A stretch of 5,642 nucleotides of DNA from a bacterium. GTDB lineage: Bacteria > SM23-31 > JAUVVT01. How positions within the stretch are numbered: position 1 is the first letter of the stretch; every line of letters begins with the position of its first letter. Positions 1,641 to 5,520 of the stretch are shown one piece after another. The notes beneath the pieces were generated by a model. That model was not told where the DNA came from and ran no database searches. It worked only from the letters and a program-made list of their open reading frames with translations. The stretch is from the NCBI GenBank assembly GCA_030616165.1, contig JAUWXV010000235.1:1-5642 (forward strand), given 5' to 3'. The translations under genes were made by a program, and so were the position numbers.

Positions 1641-1898
1641 TTAAGATATTGTTTTTTTATTTTTATCCCAATTATAATAAATATCCATAACATTATTATA
1701 CATTTCAGTTTCAAATTTCTCATCACATTTATCTTTTTTTGACTTAGCTCCAAGAATATTGCTCAAATGTACTTGTGCAAATAGTAAGTGCTCTCTTCTT
1801 TTAACAATATCAGGCGGATATGGAGTAATAGCAGGTTTATTAAATCTGAGTTCATAGTTAATTTTTTCAAACTCCTTTTCGATTTGTTTTTTATTCAT
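1641..1898 (-). CDS. Small hypothetical protein (85 aa), first gene of a two-gene operon
   Basis: The function is not recognisable. The 85-residue product is charged and lysine-rich. It has an N-terminal helix (KKQIEKEFEKINYELRF, residues 3-19), a proline-containing turn (PAITPYPPD, about 22-30), then two likely helices. It has no transmembrane segment, signal peptide or metal-binding motif. The ATG at 1898-1896 has only a weak ribosome binding site (AGATAA), but it sits about 30 bases downstream of a well-formed promoter, which supports both the gene and the start. It is followed after 26 bp by the 74-residue gene on the same strand. An opposite-strand frame across 1788-2015 has no such support and is taken as a shadow. 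Confidence 0.68.
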   Translation of the reverse strand: MNKKQIEKEFEKINYELRFNKPAITPYPPDIVKRREHLLFAQVHLSNILGAKSKKDKCDEKFETEMYNNVMDIYYNWDKNKKTIS

Positions 1899-1961: not shown

Positions 1962-2078
1962 AAAGTATTTTATAAAATATTTTATGGCACAGCAGTTATA
2001 AATTATCAGTTGTAAAACAGAGATTTATTACTGCTTATTTACAACCAGTGTATAGAGAGGGGGAATTAACTTAACTAA

Positions 2079-2146
2079 TTGTTATTATTAAATATTAATG
2101 TAGAAAAATAAAATAATTTACTTGACTTTCTGAAGTTAATATAGTA
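2079..2146. repeat. 68-bp perfect direct repeat, copy 1 (upstream of HEPN-like gene)
   Basis: Every base of this block recurs at 5061-5128 in the same orientation, 2982 bp away. Flanking similarity extends left to about 2062 (GGAATTA shared, then scattered mismatches) and right to about 2194 (TTGAGTTA and ACTTATTT shared), giving roughly 130 bp of related sequence. The block contains the dyad TTGACTTTCTGAAGTTAA (2122-2139), with ACTT and AAGT arms around TCTG. It ends about 80 bp before the HEPN-like start codon. It encodes nothing and has no terminal inverted repeats like an IS or MITE. Confidence 0.95.
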
Positions 2147-2150
2147 TTTT
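2122..2150 (+). promoter_or_regulatory. Candidate promoter/operator of the HEPN-like gene
   Basis: TTGACT (2122-2127, 5/6 to the -35 consensus) is followed after 17 bases by TATTTT (2145-2150, 4/6 to the -10 consensus). The -35 overlaps an ACTT-TCTG-AAGT dyad that could bind a repressor. In the second repeat copy the -35 and dyad are preserved, but the corresponding -10 reads TAAGTT. A better TATAAT occurs there further down, at 5181-5186. So the -35 and dyad are secure as conserved sequence, while promoter activity is inferred. Confidence 0.38.
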
Positions 2151-2227
2151 GTTGTTGAGTTAAGACTTATTTACTTATGTATGATAAGTGAATAATTATT
2201 ATGTTGATTATTAGTTAGAAAAATAAA

Positions 2228-3328
2228 ATGAGTGATTGGAATATTATTTTTATATTGCATAATTTATCTCTGAATAATCCTATTGAGTATAATTACATAG
2301 CCTTAGTACCATCATCTGATAGCCGTGTTCAAAAACTAATTAAAAAACATGATAAATTAAAGTATTTCATCAACAATTTTACTGACCAATTTGGTCGAAA
2401 AATTAGTCCTTCAATTATAGTGGTTCGTGATGATGCTCCAAGGAATCTTCTTTCATCTGAGGCAATAATAGATTTTAGAAATGTAATAGCAATTAGTTTC
2501 ATAATTATAGCATGGCAAGATTCTTTAAATAAAAGAGTGCCATTGAATTATACTAAATTTTCAGATTATTTTGATATTTACCCAATCAATCCAAGTAAGG
2601 ATTATAAATATTTAATGAGTTGGACTCCATCAATAATGAGTGCGGACGAACCAAATGAATTCTGCGGCCAATGCTCACCCGGGCTTGCAAGAATTAATTC
2701 TGTTAAAGAATATGACAAAGAATTATTTGACTCTTTGCTTAAAAAATGGGAAGAAAAACATCTTAAAAAAAGGCAAAAAAGTTGGAAGTTGATTTGTCTT
2801 TTTCGTTCCCTTGAAATGGCATATCATGCTTGTTCAATGCCATATGAAAATAATAGTACAATTTATGACTACGGTGCTAAACTAAGTATTTGGGTTGGTG
2901 CTTTCGAGATTTTAATTCATCCTCAAAACGGTAAGGCTAATTTAAAAAAAGTATTGGATTTAATAGGAAAAGTAAAATTTAATTCAAAAAAACTCAGAAA
3001 TAAATATTACCGAATACCGAATCCTAATAATAAAAACAAAAAGATTGGAGTTAATTTAGCACAAAAATTGTATAGCCAAATTTATGATGCAAGATGTGAT
3101 TTTCTGCATGGTAATCCAGTTAGTACGAAAGACATTTTTCCTTTTAAAAGTCAAAATGATTATACATTAAATTTTTTTGCACCTTTAATTTATAATATTG
3201 CTCTCAAATGTTTTCTTGAAATTTTTAATAACAAAATTGATTTAAATAAATTATCAAATTCTCAATTTTCAAACTATCGTAATTTAGAAGAAGGTTTGTT
3301 AAAAGCATTGAAGGACAGAAGGAGGTAA
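2228..3328 (+). CDS. HEPN-domain-like protein (366 aa), possible RNA-targeting/defence function
   Basis: The C-terminal half resembles Apea/HEPN-type helical domains. A helix LSIWVGAFEILIHP (219-232) and a helix KKVLDLIGKV (240-249) precede DARCDFLHGNPV (287-298). That segment contains R289-x4-H294, the R-x4-6-H signature of HEPN ribonucleases. HEPN proteins often cut RNA in toxin-antitoxin and anti-phage systems (ApeA is one example). No substrate or partner can be assigned here. The N-terminal half (1-170) has no domain I can name. It contains FCGQCSPGL (145-153) with a CxxC pair. No signal peptide or convincing membrane segment is seen. The ATG lacks a strong Shine-Dalgarno element. The gene is AT-rich like the chromosome to its left, yet its upstream region shares a 68-bp block with an integron cassette further right. 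It appears full-length and is the only plus-strand gene before the composition change. Confidence 0.8.
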   Translation: MSDWNIIFILHNLSLNNPIEYNYIALVPSSDSRVQKLIKKHDKLKYFINNFTDQFGRKISPSIIVVRDDAPRNLLSSEAIIDFRNVIAISFIIIAWQDSLNKRVPLNYTKFSDYFDIYPINPSKDYKYLMSWTPSIMSADEPNEFCGQCSPGLARINSVKEYDKELFDSLLKKWEEKHLKKRQKSWKLICLFRSLEMAYHACSMPYENNSTIYDYGAKLSIWVGAFEILIHPQNGKANLKKVLDLIGKVKFNSKKLRNKYYRIPNPNNKNKKIGVNLAQKLYSQIYDARCDFLHGNPVSTKDIFPFKSQNDYTLNFFAPLIYNIALKCFLEIFNNKIDLNKLSNSQFSNYRNLEEGLLKALKDRRR

Positions 3329-3443: not shown

Positions 3444-3932
3444 ATGAGTGGAAGAATCAAAGCTGGGCAAGGCACACTTATTGGAAACGCTGGAGAGTAC
3501 TACGTGGTTGCAGAACTATTAAAGCGTGGTATCATTGCAGCGCTTGCCCCTCGTAATGCTCCAGCCTTCGATATTCTAGCCACAAATCGTGGAAAGACCA
3601 CTAGAATCCGTGTAAAAACGAAAACTGAGCATTACGATATCTGGCAATGGGCAGTGAAGAAAGATGGATCAATTTTTCGTGACATAACAAATCGTGATGA
3701 CTTTACGGTCTTGGTCAATCTTACAATGGATCATCGAGAAATGACTTTTTATGTGATGCCCACTTCCCGTCTTAATAAGTGGCTTGTGAGAGACTTTAAA
3801 GAGTGGTTGGCTACACCAGGAAAGAGAGGACAGCCACACAGTTCATCTAATCCGAAAAGGAGCCTTTCCTATAAGCGACATAAAACAGCCCTTGAGCAAT
3901 ACCAAAATAATTGGGACATTCTTTGGAAGTGA
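3444..3932 (+). CDS. PD-(D/E)XK nuclease-like cassette protein (162 aa)
   Basis: The N-terminal part has the layout of a restriction-endonuclease-like fold: GNAGEYYVVAELLKRG (14-29, acidic E18), APAFDILA (39-46, D43), then a strand RIRVKTK (54-60) with K58. In the PD-(D/E)XK fold the residue two before the lysine is usually E or Q. Here it is R56, so nuclease activity is uncertain. A later strand with TFYVMP (101-106) and a basic tail follow, a layout shared with DUF4365-like proteins. The substrate is unknown. The start is the ATG at 3444, because AAAGGAG (3429-3435) lies eight bases upstream. An in-frame TTG at 3405 would place this site inside the coding region. Codon use is clearly more GC-rich than the genes to the left. 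The gene is followed within 11 bases by an attC site, as expected of an integron cassette. Confidence 0.78.
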   Translation: MSGRIKAGQGTLIGNAGEYYVVAELLKRGIIAALAPRNAPAFDILATNRGKTTRIRVKTKTEHYDIWQWAVKKDGSIFRDITNRDDFTVLVNLTMDHREMTFYVMPTSRLNKWLVRDFKEWLATPGKRGQPHSSSNPKRSLSYKRHKTALEQYQNNWDILWK

Positions 3933-3942
3933 GATTCTTGCA

Positions 3943-4073
3943 AGATAATAAGTCTTTGTAGTCGACCGCACTCTTGGGGTGATTTTTAAGATGGTTTTTA
4001 CATCTGGAGGGTGTTTTTTTCCAGTTTCATCCGTCGTCAAATCCGAGTTGGCGGCTTAGCTCCGTTGTTAGGC
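3943..4073 (+). other. attC recombination site 1 (end of cassette A)
   Basis: This is an integron attC of about 131 bp. The right end is canonical: L' GGCGGCTTAGCTCC (4050-4063), then R' GTTAGGC (4067-4073), cut after the G. The left end is R'' AGATAAT (3943-3949) followed by AAGTCTTTGTAGTCGACCGC. That half matches the left half of attC 2 at 18 of 24 positions from TAA(T/C) to CGACCGC. R'' has lost the invariant final C of RYYYAAC, so the site may fold or recombine poorly. The interior is long, within the size range of large VCR-like attC sites. A minus-strand reading frame across it is fortuitous. Confidence 0.8.
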
Positions 4074-4085
4074 AGGGAGATTTGA

Positions 4086-4940
4086 ATGAAGTTTGTAGCA
4101 ATTGACTTTGAAACCGCTAACCCAGATCTTGCAAGTATATGTCAGATCGGCGCGGTTACCTTCCAAGACGATAAAATCGTTGACACATGGCAGACATTAC
4201 TTAATCCTGAGGACTACTTTGATCCCATGAATGTATCAATACACGGTATCTATGAAGATATGGTTCAGGATGCCCCAACATTTCCACAAGTGTTTGGTTC
4301 TCTAAAGCATCTCATTGCTGGGCAGATAGTAGTTTGTCATTCGCATTTTGATAGAGTAGCTTTGGATAGAGTGATATATAGATACACCTTATCTAAAATC
4401 GACTGCGTTTGGTTAGATACAGCTAAAGTAGTTAGGCGAGCATGGACAGAGTTTTCGAGGAAAGGTTATGGACTAAAAAAAGTAGCTGAAACGCTTGGTA
4501 TAGAATTTGAACATCATGTAGCCGAAGAGGACGCTCGGGCAGCGGGAGAAATTTTGTTGCGGGCAATCGCTGAAACGGGGATGAGCCTTCAGGATTGGCT
4601 GATTCGCGTAAACAAGCCTATTGATCTTAATGTAGGGGAAATCACGCGGGAAGGAAATCCAGATGGGCCACTTGCTGGCGAAGTAGTGGTGTTCACCGGC
4701 ACCTTATCAATGCCTCGGAGGGAAGCGGCTGATCTTGCAGCAGAAGCTGGATGCGAAGTTGCTGCTGCTATAAAGAAAACTACTACCCTTCTGGTTGTTG
4801 GGGATCAAGACATACGCAGGTTAGTGGGTCATGAAAAAAGTTCCAAACATCGGAAGGCTGAAGACCTCATCGCCAAAGGACAGCTAATTAGAATTGTAGG
4901 TGAAAGCGATTTTCTCCGGCTTGTAGAGGTTACTGCCTAA
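4086..4940 (+). CDS. DEDDh 3'-5' exonuclease with C-terminal BRCT domain (284 aa)
   Basis: The N-terminal domain (1-165) is a DnaQ/epsilon-type exonuclease that removes nucleotides from 3' ends by two-metal catalysis. ExoI is DFET with D7 and E9, ExoII is CHSHFD with D89, and ExoIII is HHVAEED with H144 and D149, so all five DEDDh positions are present. The C-terminal part (about 196-281) is a BRCT domain, starting LAGEVVVFTGTLSMPRREAA and containing TTTLLVVGDQD. This domain type is found in DNA ligase and other repair proteins, where it binds DNA or phosphoproteins. A role in DNA repair or degradation of foreign DNA is plausible. It is not the replicative polymerase III subunit, judging by the fusion and context. 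Start: AGGGAG (4074-4079) lies six bases before the ATG. The gene fills its cassette: the leader is 18 bases after the attC cut point, and the TAA stop overlaps the next attC. Confidence 0.93.
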   Translation: MKFVAIDFETANPDLASICQIGAVTFQDDKIVDTWQTLLNPEDYFDPMNVSIHGIYEDMVQDAPTFPQVFGSLKHLIAGQIVVCHSHFDRVALDRVIYRYTLSKIDCVWLDTAKVVRRAWTEFSRKGYGLKKVAETLGIEFEHHVAEEDARAAGEILLRAIAETGMSLQDWLIRVNKPIDLNVGEITREGNPDGPLAGEVVVFTGTLSMPRREAADLAAEAGCEVAAAIKKTTTLLVVGDQDIRRLVGHEKSSKHRKAEDLIAKGQLIRIVGESDFLRLVEVTA

Positions 4941-5005
4941 CAAGGTGCTGTAGCCGACCGCGATAAAAATCCGCCGCCTACGGCGGCGGAGCTCAATCGT
5001 TATAA
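4935..5005 (+). other. attC recombination site 2 (end of cassette B)
   Basis: A 71-bp site begins with R'' GCCTAAC (4935-4941), overlapping the stop codon of the exonuclease gene, then AAGGTGCTGTAGCCGACCGC. The right half is GGCGGCGGAGCTC (4982-4994), AATC, and R' GTTATAA (4999-5005). It aligns with the right half of attC 1 (GGCGGC..AGCTC....GTTA). R'' is exactly complementary to GTTAGGC at the start of this same cassette (4067-4073), as expected when the site closes in the circular form. The apex is a strong GC-rich hairpin, CCGCCGCC-TAC-GGCGGCGG (4971-4989). Confidence 0.85.
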
Positions 5006-5060
5006 AGATTGACTGGGACAAACACTATTTTTTGAATTATATCGGAATTATCCTAAATAC

Positions 5061-5128
5061 TTGTTATTATTAAATATTAATGTAGAAAAATAAAATAATT
5101 TACTTGACTTTCTGAAGTTAATATAGTA
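5061..5128. repeat. 68-bp perfect direct repeat, copy 2 (inside cassette C)
   Basis: This block is identical base for base to 2079-2146. The related flanks run from about 5044 to about 5195. The TTGACT -35-like element lies at 5104-5109 and the ACTT-TCTG-AAGT dyad at 5107-5118. To the right, this copy carries about 19 extra bases relative to copy 1, corresponding to the palindrome TATCCGCC-AGA-GGCGGATA. The two copies flank the HEPN-like gene and cassettes A and B in direct orientation, so homologous recombination between them would delete about 2.98 kb. Confidence 0.95.
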
Positions 5129-5142
5129 AGTTATCATTGAGT

Positions 5143-5161
5143 TATCCGCCAGAGGCGGATA
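5143..5161. repeat. GC-rich palindrome inserted into repeat copy 2
   Basis: Two perfect 8-bp arms (TATCCGCC and GGCGGATA) flank AGA. The palindrome is absent from copy 1: alignment through TTGAGTTA on the left and ACTTATTT on the right needs a 19-base gap there. Its core TCCGCC...GGCGGA also forms the tip of the attC 2 hairpin (4970-4990). Short palindromes of this type are known as abundant dispersed elements in several bacterial groups. Confidence 0.75.
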
Positions 5162-5205
5162 AAACACTTATTTGATAATGTATAATAAATGGATACGGAA
5201 CACCC

Positions 5206-5280
5206 GCTTATCGGAGCTGCCATAGAACCGTCATGTAAGCGTGCCATCTTACTTTCAGCTTATCGGCAGTTGCGTTAGGC
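5206..5280 (+). other. attC recombination site 3 (end of cassette C)
   Basis: A 75-bp site. R'' GCTTATC (5206-5212) is one base off RYYYAAC, followed by GG and AGCTGCC (5215-5221). The right half is GGCAGTT (5265-5271), GC, and R' GTTAGGC (5274-5280). Folding pairs GCTGCC with GGCAGT, and the two arms have the same R-spacer-L geometry. Cassette D therefore starts at 5275 with TTAGGC. The interior has no coding sequence. Confidence 0.78.
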
Positions 5281-5331: not shown

Positions 5332-5520
5332 ATGATTGAGAAAGTTGTGAATAAGCGCAATCTGAAAGATTTCTCATCTATTAGGGAGGACTTGGATTAT
5401 TGGCTGAGTAAAACTCCTGATGAACGTGTGGCTACCGTAGATTATTTAAGAAGGCAATATCATGGAAGTACAGCCAGACTTCAGAGATCTGCTCGCGTTA
5501 CTCAACGAACACAAGGTTGA
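5332..5520 (+). CDS. Small basic protein (62 aa) paired with a nucleotidyltransferase gene
   Basis: The product contains DLDYWLSKTPDERVATVDYLR (about 21-41), then a basic tail QYHGSTARLQRSARVTQR. I know this pattern as a conserved small partner encoded immediately before nucleotidyltransferase-like genes in many bacteria. Its biochemical role is not established, and an antitoxin or partner function is inferred only from the pairing. No membrane segment or signal peptide is present. GGAGAGG (5312-5318) lies 13 bases before the ATG, rather far for a Shine-Dalgarno element but the only candidate. The 3' end overlaps the next gene by 59 bases in another frame, which implies coupled translation. 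It is the first gene of cassette D, 57 bases after the attC 3 cut point. Confidence 0.8.
   Translation: MIEKVVNKRNLKDFSSIREDLDYWLSKTPDERVATVDYLRRQYHGSTARLQRSARVTQRTQG

Follow-up and report, generated by a model that had tools for sequence, protein, structure and literature searches.

A probable cassette promoter and attI-like platform dispersed through the genome of an SM23-31 bacterium

Integrons have been described as one attI site and one Pc promoter serving an array of cassettes in which distant genes are silent. In the genome studied here, cassette genes stand behind some 20 dispersed copies of one conserved block, and this block is best explained as a lineage-specific, dispersed cassette promoter joined to an attI-like platform, without an intact integrase (we put the probability of this reading at roughly 0.8). 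In each platform, a sigma-70-type promoter (TTGACT-N17-TAnnTT) would stand before an attI-like site of about 70 bases that closes with G|TTRRRY, the integron crossover motif. The enzyme that put cassettes in at G|TT would be an integron integrase, since decayed, missing from the assembly or supplied in trans, and the platform promoter would read into the inserted cassettes. The window analyzed was a whole stretch of 5,642 nucleotides, which is contig C172 of a 3.74-Mb MAG of 343 contigs (G000).

The block in the genome and in its relatives

The 68-base identity noted in the preliminary description was confirmed: positions 2079-2146 and 5061-5128 of the window, of 15% GC, are identical; in 300 Markov simulations, the longest match between the two regions was 13 bases. 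Beyond this core, positions 2062-2162 and 5044-5144 are still 91% alike over 101 bases. Regarding the block as a pair of copies proved too narrow, given that about 20 copies are dispersed in the genome. When a sequence-only covariance model built on ten copies (R1, 141 positions) was used, 20 copies were detected in G000, and copies were also present in three of five class relatives (two in G005, one each in G001 and G002). A BLAST search with the segment 5000-5274 hit 13 places in the genome, and block copies besides the segment itself were recovered at about 75-91% identity. Moreover, the block is present in another family of the phylum as well, and the sole match to the exact block pattern in the GTDB collection was bacterium SM23_31. 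The block was found neither in viral contigs (exact pattern) nor in plasmids and phages (blastn), and an Rfam scan of seven loci gave no match.

The left-hand copy in the window, together with the genes and sites that follow it, comprises the following features.

2050..2218, + strand: block copy 1, a putative promoter and attI-like landing site upstream of the HEPN-like gene, with the crossover at G2214|T2215 (R1, 91 bits; 20-copy junction alignment)
2122..2150, + strand: predicted promoter of copy 1, TTGACT at 2122-2127, 17-nt spacer, TATTTT at 2145-2150 (hexamer columns conserved in 23 copies)
2228..3328, + strand: HEPN-like ORF of 366 aa with R-x4-H (ORF list; start 14 nt past the junction)
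3444..3932, + strand: cassette cargo ORF, possibly a nuclease of the PD-(D/E)XK type (PF11645, E 8e-4, which does not reach its cut-off)
4067..4073, + strand: GTTAGGC core closing an attC-like stretch behind the PDDEXK ORF (sequence, by eye)
4086..4940, + strand: exonuclease (RNase_T) and BRCT protein, cassette cargo (PF00929, E 3e-19; PF00533, E 1e-5)
4935..5005, + strand: attC-like site of the exonuclease cassette, GCCTAAC ... GTTATAA, with palindrome CCGCCGCC/GGCGGCGG in the loop (sequence; fold z -2.6, owed to the palindrome)

The HEPN-like gene had been taken as simply chromosomal. Its start lies 14 bases behind the G|TT junction that other copies carry in front of their cassettes, and the gene itself is probably cassette cargo of copy 1. 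Its GC content is 28%, as compared with 45% for the exonuclease ORF, and the ORF has no Pfam match and no PADLOC match.

A conserved predicted promoter directed toward the junction

From left to right, the aligned copies consist of an AT-rich arm, the elements TTGACT, N17 and TAnnTT, and about 70 conserved bases ending in ...AAGTTAATTATTAG|TTAGG. Both promoter hexamers, -35 and -10, are conserved with a spacing of exactly 17 nt (TTGACT-N17-TAnnTT) in 23 copies; in this 23-copy table, the -35 values are partly built in because the rows were anchored on TTGANT, and the -10 values are free of anchoring. In alignment A2, which was anchored elsewhere than on the promoter, the invariant columns include TTGA and the last T of the -35 element, as well as the A and the last T of the -10 element. 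Single-sequence promoter scans gave no signal above that of shuffles. At the level of sequence, the block has the properties of a promoter that would read into the first cassette.

The TTGACT box that had been pointed out earlier is present in both window copies, but the dyad ACTT-N4-AAGT described around it occurs in 6 of the 23 aligned copies, and the idea of a shared operator or dyad was rejected on these numbers. The proposal of common control by such an element does not agree with the pattern of conservation, in which spacer and dyad vary while the -35 element, the -10 element and the crossover core are conserved. To our knowledge, no general sequence defines attI sites, so that the attI identity of the block rests on its position, its core and its promoter.

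Cassette exchange at the crossover core

Conservation stops across one G|TTRRRY core in 20 copies. Information per base is mostly 0.5-1.3 bits as far as the junction, then drops to about 0.1-0.2 bit from +7 onward (20 copies), and the junction bases are G in 90%, T in 90%, T in 90% and A in 85% of these copies; the alignment was anchored at the core positions, and the drop beyond the core is independent of this anchoring. Cassette exchange at the junction was seen at the diverged copies C24a and C233a, behind which the same 101-aa-gene cassette is found. When these two loci were compared, identity was 71-75% over the 120 bases to the left of G|TT (71% for the nearest 60) and 97% in the 60 bases to the right of it. 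It stayed at 91% or more as far as +480, the point at which C24 has a RAYT-type insertion. Such a breakpoint is the footprint that would be expected of integron recombination, not of a segmental duplication with random ends.

The cargo differs from copy to copy and includes a TIR protein, a pentapeptide protein, a trypsin-like protease, DUF2971 (PDC-S31) and radical SAM proteins, HicB-HicA (assigned by eye), small membrane proteins and, twice, the 101-aa protein. Cargo genes lie on the same strand as the block and mostly start 14-183 nt past the junction. Several of them are followed by textbook attC sites, in C233 (L091:1790-1923 and 7166-7227), C24, C204 and C20. Finders requiring strict core complementarity missed most attC sites, and a looser finder was used with shuffle controls, by which chance matches amount to 0.1-1.3 per 10 kb per strand; many attC calls on the block contigs were made by eye. 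A second conserved family, a right flank of about 200 bases, starts exactly at GTTA behind the last attC in C208, C24, C233 and C128. This arrangement suggests an ancestral element that may have been split by cassette insertion at the GTTA of the right flank; an empty (unsplit) landing site joined to the right flank was searched for, and none was found.

The gene-less segment at 5000-5274

The right-hand part of the window contains the second copy of the block (copy 2), with the features listed here.

5000..5274, + strand: gene-less cassette-like segment (no ORF of at least 40 aa on the + strand; sole full-length copy in the genome)
5061..5128, + strand: 68 bases matching 2079-2146 exactly (sequence comparison, Markov simulations)
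5104..5132, + strand: predicted promoter of copy 2, TTGACT at 5104-5109, 17-nt spacer, TAAGTT at 5127-5132 (hexamer columns, 23 copies)
5142..5162, + strand: REP-like palindrome TTATCCGCCAGAGGCGGATAA (alignments; same place in copies C177 and C266b)
5163..5195, + strand: attI-like region, left part only (match to model R1 stops at position 115 of 141)
5196..5280, + strand: apparently foreign attC half in place of the attI-like core, ending GTTAGGC at 5274-5280 (79% identical to C329:2191-2251)
5332..5520, + strand: 62-aa ORF of the next cassette (ORF list)
from 5462, + strand: nucleotidyltransferase-like ORF, truncated where the contig stops (identified by eye; the 60-aa fragment has no convincing Pfam match)

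The absence of a gene from the segment was borne out by the ORF list for + strand ORFs of at least 40 aa, and a BLAST search of the genome returned one full-length copy of the segment and none elsewhere. Of the attC boundaries that had been assigned to it, the right one stands (GTTAGGC, 5274-5280, a clear integron core) but the left one is poor (GTTATAA, 4999-5005); given this poor left core and the REP-like palindrome in the preceding site, the limits of the cassette are only partly certain. Copy 2 ends near 5195, about 20 nt short of its crossover core, and its promoter is kept. It is the exceptional copy, in which the last 20 or so bases of the attI core would have been lost and a foreign attC half put in their place. 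The related attC half at C329:2191-2251 stands before a CBASS 2TM effector-like gene; ahead of it, a block-like stretch is visible by eye, to which the block model gives no score. The other REP-like palindrome, that at 5142-5162, lies at the same place in three copies (that at 5044, C177 and C266b), and part of the block family thus descends by copying.

The segment is plausibly a gene-less promoter cassette, which would transcribe the small-ORF/nucleotidyltransferase cassette behind it. The preliminary description regarded it as a mobile regulatory module. This holds insofar as the block is promoter-bearing and is set before different accessory genes, and insofar as 5000-5274 is gene-less and cassette-like, but in most copies it is the promoter that would be fixed and the gene that would be mobile.

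Search for an integrase

In G000 and five class relatives, no integrase scored above the TIGR02249 cut-off; as these MAGs are incomplete (completeness 63-90%), absence of the enzyme is not established. Block copy C260b is divergent from an ORF whose first part matches, over 25 aa, the N-terminus of integron integrases (E 0.0055) and no models other than these. About 500 bp beyond this match, the opposite strand encodes a C-terminal fragment of a tyrosine recombinase. A motif scan of 25 loci returned both C260 fragments and nothing more. Together, the two short parts on opposite strands appear to be an integron-integrase remnant, the N-terminal part having the E-value of 0.0055 given above. XerC/XerD-like genes at C169 and C274 were considered as integrase candidates and were rejected on the basis of family scores and neighbors.

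Alternative explanations

Because the block ends in a GTTRRRY core, it might instead be an unusual attC, that is, the promoter-carrying 3' end of native cassettes, with each block belonging to the cassette upstream. Copies C172b and C266a do lie inside arrays behind other cassettes, and the arms of copy 1 are weakly complementary between 2069 and 2220 (score 10.8). We consider this reading improbable, since it is the sequence of the block that is conserved rather than a fold: RNAalifold found no conserved fold, with an unfavorable covariation term (+2.31) and two-sided change in 1 of 33 pairs, as expected for attI and not for attC. Moreover, the genes upstream of the blocks are unrelated chromosomal genes in either orientation, often hundreds of bases away, which indicates that the block starts arrays and does not end cassettes. 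It is very unlikely, too, that the block is an ordinary dispersed repeat of the MITE or REP kind whose position before genes is incidental. There are about 20 AT-rich copies with subfamilies (the REP palindrome being common to three), and the contigs that carry them are also rich in RAYT-type repeats. The preliminary description had proposed that numerous copies bearing no relation to downstream genes would reveal such a repeat; numerous copies were indeed found, but they keep a strict register with same-strand accessory genes, mostly within 14-183 nt, and their conservation ends at one core motif, at which cassettes are exchanged. Terminal inverted repeats and target duplications were not seen, and the left ends of the blocks grade off without inverted repeats. 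Insertion of cassettes at non-classical genomic attG sites, the block being a host promoter family that was hit repeatedly, has a precedent in IntI1, for which genomic cassette insertion at attG has been described (Loot et al. 2024, cited in PMC12901181). A family of some 20 sites with 140 bases in common, one of them beside the apparent integrase remnant, is more specific than the attG sites described there, and block copies also occur in another family of the phylum; we give this explanation a slight chance at most.

For the segment 5000-5274 itself, the opposing view deserves considerable weight, although we hold it to be somewhat short of an even chance: the segment may be a dead relic of deletion or gene conversion between neighboring copies and no mobile cassette. 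Its match to copy 1 ends abruptly after 68 bases, which fits gene conversion of this kind, and its right part resembles C177 and C266b; the poor left boundary core and the lack of a second copy of the whole segment point the same way. Against this, neither promoter box is damaged, and on the right the segment ends in a proper core with a cassette behind it.

Comparison with known cassette systems

Like the Pc promoter and attI site of an integron, the putative platform has a promoter directed into a site ending G|TTRRRY, with attC cassettes behind it and one copy divergent from the apparent integrase remnant; unlike them, it occurs in about 20 dispersed copies per genome rather than one, and no intact integrase was found. 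A CALIN is a cluster of attC sites lacking an integron integrase (PMC9668308). The attC cassettes in C233, C24, C204 and C20 likewise have no integrase nearby (none on these contigs), but a conserved promoter joined to an attI-like site stands at the head of each cluster, and the conserved right flank closes some of them. Gene-less promoter cassettes have been demonstrated experimentally in Vibrio (PMC11014356) and in oral Treponema (PMC6557892). The segment 5000-5274 resembles them in being ORF-less and cassette-like with a predicted sense-strand promoter, and differs in that its promoter is a recognizable copy of the platform promoter accompanied by half of an attI-like site. In the delta-attI cassettes of mobile integrons, which keep the attI core beside the crossover and lose the outer part (PMC12901181), a truncated attI fragment has likewise become part of a cassette; 5000-5274 in contrast keeps the outer part and the promoter and loses the core. 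Insertions at attG sites share with the present loci the occurrence of isolated chromosomal cassettes away from a classical integron, whereas the targets here are one conserved sequence family with a promoter.

A more far-reaching and tentative view, which we think unlikely but worth stating, is that of a distributed integron, in which many promoter-plus-attI sites would be spread through the genome, possibly because the platform itself can travel as a gene-less cassette; nearly every cassette would then stand first behind its own promoter, and the silencing of genes in the arrays of large integrons would be avoided. Already on the main reading given at the outset, some twenty dispersed promoter/landing sites, mostly with one or a few cassettes each, would represent a different architecture run by the same machinery. 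In a literature search of incomplete coverage, no paper was found on multiple or dispersed attI sites, or on integrons in SM23-31 genomes. The block may also provide a handle for finding integron cargo (here TIR, CBASS-effector-like, HicBA and DUF2971 proteins) in MAGs without an assembled integrase.

Additional observations

RAYT/IS200-like transposase remnants with GGGACACAATACT-type ends occur among cassettes at L018 (about 930-1390), L037 (about 1195-1480) and L017 (about 7900-8100). A cassette gene at L020 (1466-2170, - strand) matches the PADLOC CBASS 2TM effector models (E 7e-26). Behind block copy C177, three tandem paralogous proteins of about 300 aa with signal peptides are encoded at L014 2360-5162; the one of the three that was tested has no Pfam match. 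Within the window, small ORFs without a Pfam match lie at 1390-1614 and 1641-1898 (- strand), in the interval from hisS to block copy 1. At 985-1080, ahead of the hisS-like gene, three 21-base repeats in tandem (TTTTGTGATAATATTTTATCA-like) are accompanied by an inverted copy, and together they look like an operator array or a repeat; a similar array precedes an amidohydrolase gene in L019.
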